NCBI RefSeq assembly: GCF_004792515.1
Contig: NZ_CP038865.1
Span: 332,001 to 396,000, forward strand
DNA from: Vagococcus xieshaowenii
Lineage (GTDB): Bacteria; Bacillota; Bacilli; Lactobacillales; Vagococcaceae
Direction: 5' to 3'
DNA length: 64,000 nucleotides
Shown here: positions 61,202-64,000 of the stretch, piece by piece
How the letters are laid out: every line of letters starts with the position of its first letter
Numbering within the stretch: the first letter of the stretch is position 1
The notes under the pieces: generated by a model
Database searches by the model: none
Told to the model about the DNA's origin: nothing
Seen by the model: only the letters and a program-made list of their open reading frames with translations
Program-made: the position numbers and the translations under genes

Positions 61202-61381
61202 AATTTATTTTACCACCTTACTTTTTGATAGTTATTATTATACATAAAAAAAGTAAGTAAAACAATTGAAAAATATTTTTGTTTTTTAAAGAGGGAATAA
61301 TAGTCGTATATAGAGTGCTATTATAGTATTCTTTATTAGTTAACGTAAGTTTTTTTCATATTTTTCACATCAAGGTGCAAT

Positions 61382-61459
61382 TAGTGAACTAGTCTTTTTA
61401 TCATACATTAATTATAATTTAAGTATAATAAAAGAAACGTTAATTGTACGTTCACTAAA
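61382..61459. promoter_or_regulatory. Inverted 9-mers flanking the promoter of the recombinase-like gene
   Basis: TTAGTGAAC (61382-61390) and its exact reverse complement GTTCACTAA (61451-61459) bracket a TATAAT (61425-61430). Inside the right arm AACGT...ACGTT (61437-61453) forms a smaller palindrome. The right 9-mer ends 15 bases before the start codon and overlaps the leader. These could be binding sites for the recombinase-like protein itself. Confidence 0.45.
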
Positions 61460-61473
61460 AGGAGAAGATTGGT

Positions 61474-62028
61474 ATGACAAAATATGGGTATGCTTATTCA
61501 GCTACGGGAGATAGCCTAGAAAAGCAAGTAGAAACATTGAAAAAATATGGGGTAGAAAACATTATCATTGAAAGTTCTATGGAAAGTGTGGATAATGTTC
61601 ATGCGGACTTAAATGATTTAGTGGCTTCATTGGAAACTGGTGATCAGTTAGTCGTACAACGTTTAATTTGTATTGGAAAATCAATTATTCAATTAGCAGA
61701 CTTTTTAACCGTATTAGAAGAAAAAGGCGCAAGTTTAGTCGTTGTAGAAAAAGCAACAGAATTAAGTGAATTATCTGATGAAGATTATGCACGAGCAATT
61801 AGAAGCTTTGCTAAGATGGAAAAAGATATCATTCGCGAACGTACGTCTCGTGGCTTAGAGTTTGCCCGTAAAAACGGCCGTATTGGTGGACGTCCAAAAA
61901 TTTCACAAGAGACAGTAGAAAAAATTCAATTCTTATATAACAATAATAAATATACATTGAGACAAATTGCTGAAGAATGTCAAATTTCTTTAGGGACAGC
62001 ATACAAATATACACAAGAACAAAAATAA
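61474..62028 (+). CDS. Serine recombinase (resolvase/invertase)-like protein, catalytically dead
   Basis: 184 residues with the small-resolvase layout: N-terminal fold 1-110, long E helix MEKDIIRERTSRGLEFARKN (115-134) and a C-terminal helix-turn-helix (KYTLRQIAEECQISLGTAYK, 159-178). Compared with gamma-delta resolvase the catalytic residues are gone: the R8-V-S10 triplet reads Y8-S9-A10, Arg45 has no counterpart, and LDRLGR (D67, R68, R71) reads LICIGK. The DNA-binding half is intact and the frame is undamaged, so it is more likely a domesticated DNA-binding protein than a decaying gene. No transposon or invertible segment is visible. It precedes the autolysin gene. Confidence 0.88.
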   Translation: MTKYGYAYSATGDSLEKQVETLKKYGVENIIIESSMESVDNVHADLNDLVASLETGDQLVVQRLICIGKSIIQLADFLTVLEEKGASLVVVEKATELSELSDEDYARAIRSFAKMEKDIIRERTSRGLEFARKNGRIGGRPKISQETVEKIQFLYNNNKYTLRQIAEECQISLGTAYKYTQEQK

Positions 62029-62149: not shown

Positions 62150-62200
62150 TTATATAATGATATTAAAAAGTTATTGTGGATACATTTCATTAAAATGGTG

Positions 62201-62206
62201 TATAAT
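62201..62206 (+). promoter_or_regulatory. Probable -10 of the autolysin gene
   Basis: A perfect TATAAT preceded by GGTG, with no clear -35 at the usual distance. It would give a leader of about 190 bases. The gap 62029-62403 holds the terminator above, this promoter and AT-rich leader; no other gene is seen in it. Confidence 0.45.
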
Positions 62207-62403
62207 ATTAAATGTACGTATTGTATGAAGTAGAGTGAGTTTTGTTTAGTATTTGTGACGTTGTTTTTTTGGGAGAATATTCGTCTTTAATTAATTGAAT
62301 GACGTAATTAGTGTTAGGACACGAATATAAACAAATTCATAATTAAATTGTGACTATAATAAATAAGGAGAAGTATTATAGTTTGATAAAGGAGGAATTT
62401 AGT

Positions 62404-64000
62404 ATGAAAAAACCAATGAACACTTTTTTAGTGTTTACGGTGGGGATGTATAGTACCTTTACACTAGGCGGGCCTATTATTCCATTAGTAGCGGCACAAC
62501 AAAATGAAACAGAAATGACCGAAATAACAGAAAATTCAAGTGCACAAACTAGTTCTGAAACCGAAGAATCTGTTGTTGAGACAACAGATCAAGTGACTAC
62601 GGAAACAACAGAAATGACTGAAACAACGGAAGAAAATATTCCAGAATCAACAACTGATTCTAGTCAGACATTACCTGAGGAATCTCAAACAACCGAAGAA
62701 ACTACTACTTCTGACACTCAAGAAAGTACAGAGGAGACGGTGTCATCTACTGAATCAGAAGGTTCTGTGACTAATACAACCACTGAAACAAGTGAAAATT
62801 CGACAGAAACAACTGAGACAAGTAAAGAGTCGCCTAATAAAGTAGATAGTTCATCATCCGTAGACAAAGGTGAACAGCCAGTAGCTAATCAAAAACCCGG
62901 CAAAGATAATAATCCGGGGAAGAAGCCAGTGAATAATTTAAAACCAGGTAAAGCCGAAATAAAACCTCATAAAGAAGGAAATAATCAACCAGTAGCAGCT
63001 TCTAAAACGAAACAAAATAATAAGCAATCAACAACGGATAATCGAGTAAGCACAAAAGCAGCCACTTCAGGTCCGTCATTTAATACGCAGATCGACTTAG
63101 GTGAACAGTCTGAAGAATTTGCAACGTCTAATCTATTAAATTACCGTTTACCTTTATTATCTGAACTAAAGTCAGAGCAAGAAGCTGTTCTTATTTATGG
63201 TAGTTTATTGTTGGTAGGCAAAGAGCAGTTTGAAGAACCTTCAACAAAAGACAAAAAAAATGAACAACATAAAAAGCATGAAGAAAATAAAGAAAATAAG
63301 GTTAAGCCTACTCCTATTACCTCAAGAGCTTTAATGACATGGTTAGGTAATGAATATTTTGACCAAGATTTATTGACCAAACAAACTAAGCCATTATCTG
63401 CTTCAGAAACAATTGCTGTAGGCGATATTGTTGTTTGGACAAATTATATGAATCAAACGCAGTATGGTTTATATATCGGCGATGATTTGTTAATCACGGT
63501 AGAAAAAGATGGTGATGATCACTATGAAGTGGTAACTCAGTACTATGTCGAAAGTGATGATCAAACTATCTATCGAAATGAAAAGCTAACTTTAAATAAA
63601 GAAGGGGAAAAATTATTAAAACAATACCCTGCTTCTTTAAATTTTCAAACCAATCCGTTAACAGAAAAATTTGTAAAATCTATTGGAGAAGGAGCGCGTG
63701 AATTAGGTTTAAAATATGATGTTTTTGCCTCTGTTATGATTGCACAAGCATTGTTAGAAAGTGCCTCTGGAACAAGTGGTTTAGCACAAGCACCTAACCA
63801 TAATTTATTTGGCATAAAAGGACAATACCAAAGTCAGAGCGTTTCAATGGCAACAAATGAAGACGATGGTAAAGGAAATCTTTATGCTATCCAATCAGCG
63901 TTTAGAAAATATCCTAGTTATCAAGAATCTCTTAAAGATTATGTGTCATTAATCAAGAGTGGTACAGGATGGCAATCAGATTTTTATAAAGAAGCATGGC
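62404..64000 (+). CDS. AtlA-like secreted N-acetylglucosaminidase autolysin (partial, 3' end missing)
   Basis: Peptidoglycan hydrolase cut by the right window edge after 532 codons. Signal peptide about 1-31 (cleavage after PLVAA), then a Thr/Glu/Ser-rich low-complexity region (about 32-140) as in AtlA of E. faecalis, and a Pro/Lys/Asn region with PGK repeats (about 160-215). A segment of about 300-395 resembles an NlpC/P60 fold without its Cys and His. The GH73 glucosaminidase domain begins near 415, with catalytic E452 in AQALLESASGTSG and the NLFGIKG motif. LysM repeats would be expected beyond the edge. Ribosome site AAAGGAGGAATTT. Confidence 0.9.
   Translation, partial: MKKPMNTFLVFTVGMYSTFTLGGPIIPLVAAQQNETEMTEITENSSAQTSSETEESVVETTDQVTTETTEMTETTEENIPESTTDSSQTLPEESQTTEETTTSDTQESTEETVSSTESEGSVTNTTTETSENSTETTETSKESPNKVDSSSSVDKGEQPVANQKPGKDNNPGKKPVNNLKPGKAEIKPHKEGNNQPVAASKTKQNNKQSTTDNRVSTKAATSGPSFNTQIDLGEQSEEFATSNLLNYRLPLLSELKSEQEAVLIYGSLLLVGKEQFEEPSTKDKKNEQHKKHEENKENKVKPTPITSRALMTWLGNEYFDQDLLTKQTKPLSASETIAVGDIVVWTNYMNQTQYGLYIGDDLLITVEKDGDDHYEVVTQYYVESDDQTIYRNEKLTLNKEGEKLLKQYPASLNFQTNPLTEKFVKSIGEGARELGLKYDVFASVMIAQALLESASGTSGLAQAPNHNLFGIKGQYQSQSVSMATNEDDGKGNLYAIQSAFRKYPSYQESLKDYVSLIKSGTGWQSDFYKEAW

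Follow-up and report, generated by a model that had tools for sequence, protein, structure and literature searches.

RES, a 184-residue protein encoded at positions 61474–62028 (forward strand) of the window, the 64,000-nucleotide stretch of Vagococcus xieshaowenii DNA analysed here, has a predicted serine-recombinase fold and lacks the catalytic arginines. Judging from sequence comparisons, we consider that RES is probably a transcription factor derived from a resolvase/invertase-type recombinase, which would bind a dyad in its own promoter and activate its own gene and, in relatives, further targets. A sequence-only reading of the same DNA had suggested a recombinase turned into a regulator or nucleoid-type protein. 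RES does appear to be a chromosomal DNA-binding regulator, and from our evidence it is more likely a sequence-specific promoter activator than a nucleoid-type protein.

Fold, catalytic residues and selection

The RES open reading frame is intact, as the sequence-only reading had it, with an ATG start and a Shine-Dalgarno-like AGGAG at 61460–61464 (+). Pfam (Resolvase, 1.2e-17; HTH_7, 6.6e-05, slightly below the HTH_7 cut-off), a PDB sequence search (best match Gin, with gamma-delta/Tn3 resolvase and Sin as further relatives), AlphaFold2 (pLDDT 87.7) and Foldseek (top matches 5cy1, a DNA-bound Tn3 resolvase, and 1gdt, in which gamma-delta resolvase occupies a 34-bp site) concur on a predicted small serine recombinase fold of the resolvase/invertase type. 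RES has the architecture of these enzymes, in which the resolvase N-terminal fold is followed by the E helix and then by a C-terminal helix-turn-helix. The N-terminal, former catalytic domain (residues 1–100; 61474–61773, +), delimited by alignment and dN/dS, diverges within the family yet is under purifying selection, and it contains an invariant GKS-x-IQL. The E helix, GGRP arm and C-terminal helix-turn-helix (residues 101–184; 61774–62025, +) are nearly invariant in the family, in line with the preservation noted earlier.

Small serine recombinases use Ser10 as nucleophile together with R8, R45, R68 and R71, and RES has none of these. In a single alignment with intact recombinases of related genomes, R8 is replaced by Y, S10 by A, R45 by H, D67 by I, R68 by C and R71 by K, confirming the earlier description of a recombinase fold with its catalytic residues replaced; the E-helix Arg is retained. 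The expectation that homologues share these substitutions is borne out for the arginines and fails for the serine. R8, R45, R68 and R71 are absent from all 26 family orthologues compared (Y, F, N or H replaces R8, C or S replaces R68, and K invariably replaces R71), and no orthologue with the four intact was found among the 26 aligned. Position 10 is variable, with Ser in 10, Thr in 10 and other residues in 6, and loss of S10, Ala in the window protein, is not a family trait. As far as the aligned sequences tell, the inactive family is defined by its lost arginines and not by the serine.

Relative to the nearest relative, dN/dS is 0.08 for residues 1–100 and 0.03 for residues 101–184, with zero amino-acid changes in residues 140–184, and it is below 0.3 in every measurable orthologue pair. 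Values are low for the two domains alike, with the minimum in the helix-turn-helix, and point to purifying selection on both. On these values RES is not a decaying pseudogene.

A RES homologue is present at E ≤ 1e-30 in 29 of 29 family genomes, 28 of them with clear orthologues. Family genome G010, which is of lower completeness, has divergent homologues only; it carries an f3-type gene beside gpmA (L062) and is missing the usual f1-type gene. Two recombinase-like copies occur in G020 (L048, L059), each with a dyad upstream, and further recombinase-like genes of family genomes, with most catalytic residues missing, form a clade of their own (L086, L087, L090, L091). An azoR-like flavodoxin-fold gene (PF02525; 60581–61201, −) is the divergent neighbour of the RES gene in many family genomes; we report it as genomic context, which does not imply control by RES. 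One family group has azoR, an AI-2E-type permease (named from sequence, without a family search) and two more genes upstream of the RES gene, and another has different upstream neighbours, with udk, a peptidyl-prolyl isomerase and an S1 gene downstream. Synteny on the azoR side is often kept. On the other side, the glucosaminidase-domain gene (PF01832; 62404–64000, +, extending past the window end) adjoins RES in the window genome and its nearest relative (G003) only, and the downstream genes elsewhere differ. The proposed link to this autolysin gene did not hold up, as the arrangement is common to G003 alone and a scan of the 64-kb window predicted no dyad site upstream of the gene, between it and RES.

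Own-promoter dyad and promoter geometry

The proposed RES binding site is a 34-bp dyad, TTCATATTTTTCACATCAAGGTGCAATTAGTGAA, at 61355–61388 (no strand assigned), which is the window's sole strong match and the best one in the whole genome. It belongs to a conserved 32–34 bp palindrome, TCA-N4-TT-N-C-N-TA-N4-TA-N-G-N-AA-N4-TGA, which lies upstream of the RES gene in 26/26 orthologues (dyad symmetry p = 0.002; the L046 copy is degenerate) and is kept there although the neighbouring genes vary. Such an element in the own promoter of every orthologue compared is the pattern of an autoregulated transcription factor, and the palindrome is as long as the site that a resolvase dimer occupies; from this position and size we infer that the dyad is a putative binding site of RES. 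Two regions had been singled out earlier as places to look for binding: 61370–61480 overlaps the predicted site, which lies only partly inside it, and 62150–62410 contains no predicted dyad site. Seven own promoters (L043, L048, L059, L037, L042, L044 and L045) have a second strong dyad 90–100 bp upstream of the first, a spacing at which bridging might occur, and an eighth (L053) has a weak second dyad at 82 bp.

In the window, a −10 box, TATAAT, at 61413–61418 (+) lies 24 bp past the dyad, with no −35 consensus, and a TATA-type −10 box is found 23–25 bp past the dyad in all 26 own promoters. The register recurs at other genes. Exact TATAAT stands 22–24 bp downstream of the site in 17 of 122 oriented flanks (61 fetched non-self sites in both orientations), versus 0.85 expected from other offsets; 9 of the 17 hits are rpoB in related genomes, so a binomial p overstates their independence. 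The phased box spans at least five unrelated gene families; among the hits are rpoB, flgB, the gene of a secreted WGGE-motif protein and three or more distinct surface-protein genes. The −35 match is 2.9/6 in dyad promoters versus 2.8/6 in other TATAAT controls, a comparison that gives activation no added support; zero dyad promoters reach 5/6 or better, and their basal activity is therefore probably weak. A fixed register to the −10 box is expected of an activator that touches RNA polymerase, and a fixed site-to-−10 distance, as for an activator replacing the −35 contact, is seen with the exception of the walR, sortase and rex/ABC-F sites. At walR, TATAAT follows about 90 bp after the site, in a different register.

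We propose that a RES dimer would engage the 32–34 bp dyad in a manner similar to gamma-delta resolvase on its own site, with the arms in the minor groove and the helix-turn-helix motifs on the outer TCA/TGA. The promoter-proximal subunit would touch RNA polymerase and substitute for the −35 contact, leading to activation; the role of activator is suggested because the dyad centre lies approximately 52–53 bp upstream of the inferred start point and TATAAT is fixed at 22–24 bp. Acting on its own gene, RES would provide positive feedback. In relatives it would activate surface adhesins/pilins, the secreted WGGE coiled-coil protein, flgB and rpoB, and a different mode is likely at walR because the site there is shifted upstream by about 67 bp.

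Further sites in relatives

A site model, R1, was trained on own-promoter sites only and does not include the −10 box. At E ≤ 0.005, R1 yields 16 non-self sites across the 29 genomes of the family versus 2 in 29 controls, as tallied manually among the hits listed, where controls are genomes of the same order without an f1-type gene or with divergent homologues only. R1 also recovers the walR and rpoB sites across the family, as pattern searches did. Sites are intergenic at 39 of 47 fetched loci versus 3 of 15 chance-level hits. In the window genome the top R1 hit is the self site and there is no other strong site; matches to the core motif with one mismatch there were dismissed as chance (16 versus 15 in the control). 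Sites above background upstream of other genes are thus found in the family and not in the window's own genome.

The walR site is present in 12 of 14 genomes of genus g3, and in 11 of the 12 its dyad is a conserved island between diverged flanks; the rpoB site is present in 10 g3 genomes, and both are restricted to this genus. A flgB/motA site occurs in three genomes, sortase-like gene sites in two and rex/ABC-F sites in two. The secreted coiled-coil protein with the WGGE motif has a dyad upstream of its gene in five genomes, which represent four genera (L133, L265, L267, L269 and L276), and the two copies tested (L133 and L269) have no Pfam match. Surface-protein sites precede several SpaA, collagen-binding, VWA or LPXTG proteins (adhesins/pilins). 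The names walR, walK, rpoB, flgB, motA and rex were assigned from sequence; Pfam identified the surface proteins and one sortase. The wider regulon suggested by these predicted sites applies to relatives, chiefly those in genera g3 and g5; in the window genome, putative self-regulation alone is visible.

Alternative readings and known systems

The same protein and sites could instead serve repression, with RES occupying the −35 region and blocking polymerase, as Tn3 TnpR does on tnpA/tnpR from res. Active Tn3 resolvase represses transcription from res, binding near promoters (PMC7157771), and the RES dyad likewise adjoins the −35 region, with looping a fit for the paired dyads of the seven own promoters. 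We nevertheless regard repression as unlikely: a strict TATAAT register over unrelated genes is typical of polymerase contact, the dyad promoters lack good −35 matches, and, unlike Tn3 TnpR repression, the site geometry suggests activation. Another objection to our proposed explanation is that some other regulator, with the RES gene under its control, could recognise the dyad; that gene would then be one target among others and RES would have a different function. RES is linked to the dyad by motif position. Counting against the link, G033 has an f6 homologue whose recognition helix is nearly identical and whose synteny is shared, yet no dyad precedes this gene and the G033 genome contains no strong site. 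However, the RES gene is the sole target common to 26/26 orthologues, the pattern of autoregulation; 32–34 bp is long for an ordinary helix-turn-helix dimer and right for a resolvase dimer; and G010, without an f1-type gene, is also without a dyad when 2 mismatches are allowed. A separate reader of the dyad therefore seems quite improbable to us.

Recombinase ancestry implies an ability for synapsis and some sites are paired about 90 bp apart, which would suit a protein of chromosome architecture that links sites far apart and for which promoter positions are secondary; since each genome has few sites, and these are intergenic and in register with −10 boxes, we give this reading very little credence. 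Hardly credible at all is a recombinase still active by altered chemistry, or a decaying remnant: 20 of 26 orthologues still have Ser or Thr at position 10, but R8, R45 and R68 are lost, R71 is always K, dN/dS is far below 1 and the gene is in nearly every family genome.

RES, read as an activator, shares with gamma-delta/Tn3 resolvase its fold, domain order and a dimer site of approximately 28–34 bp, and differs in lacking the catalytic arginines and in being chromosomal and vertically kept; no res array or transposon was found. Gin and Hin have a similar GGRP arm and helix-turn-helix, Gin being the best PDB sequence match, but are catalytically active and invert DNA with the help of Fis, whereas RES lacks the catalytic residues. 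The Enterococcus-type (f3) chromosomal homologue resembles RES in occurring once per f3 genome examined, with a conserved helix-turn-helix and R45 lost, and differs in keeping R8 and mostly R68, in its locus and in its separate tree clade. In f3 genomes (L064–L081; for example, L065:7392–7988), this recombinase-like gene lies between rpiA and gpmA, with S10 replaced by T in 18/18, and is perhaps a second domestication; f3 homologues have no matching dyad upstream, with weak symmetry at most. A single domestication for f1 and f3 is doubtful, as the tree (rooted for drawing only) separates them and places f3 closer to active enzymes. The catalytic losses may be separate because the tree sets f1 apart from the f3 homologues.

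A further parallel is MrpR (YopR), the master repressor of the SPbeta prophage, a recombinase fold that has lost catalysis and acts as a regulator binding repeated sites (PMC10516654). MrpR is phage-encoded, a repressor and of the tyrosine-recombinase fold, whereas RES has the serine-recombinase fold; no description of an inactive serine-recombinase regulator or activator was found in the literature searched, which excluded most subscription papers. We tentatively suggest that RES may represent a family of serine-recombinase-fold activators that would be the first of its kind. As a positive-feedback regulator encoded in the core genome, it would coordinate adhesins, motility, WalRK and RNA polymerase supply without DNA rearrangement. 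Recombinases of the invertase type control surface genes by flipping DNA. RES seems to be a recombinase domesticated into a promoter-bound regulator of genes similar to those that invertases flip. If so, it would define a new transcription-factor family that annotation pipelines would label ‘recombinase’, with defined sites and promoters supplied for testing.
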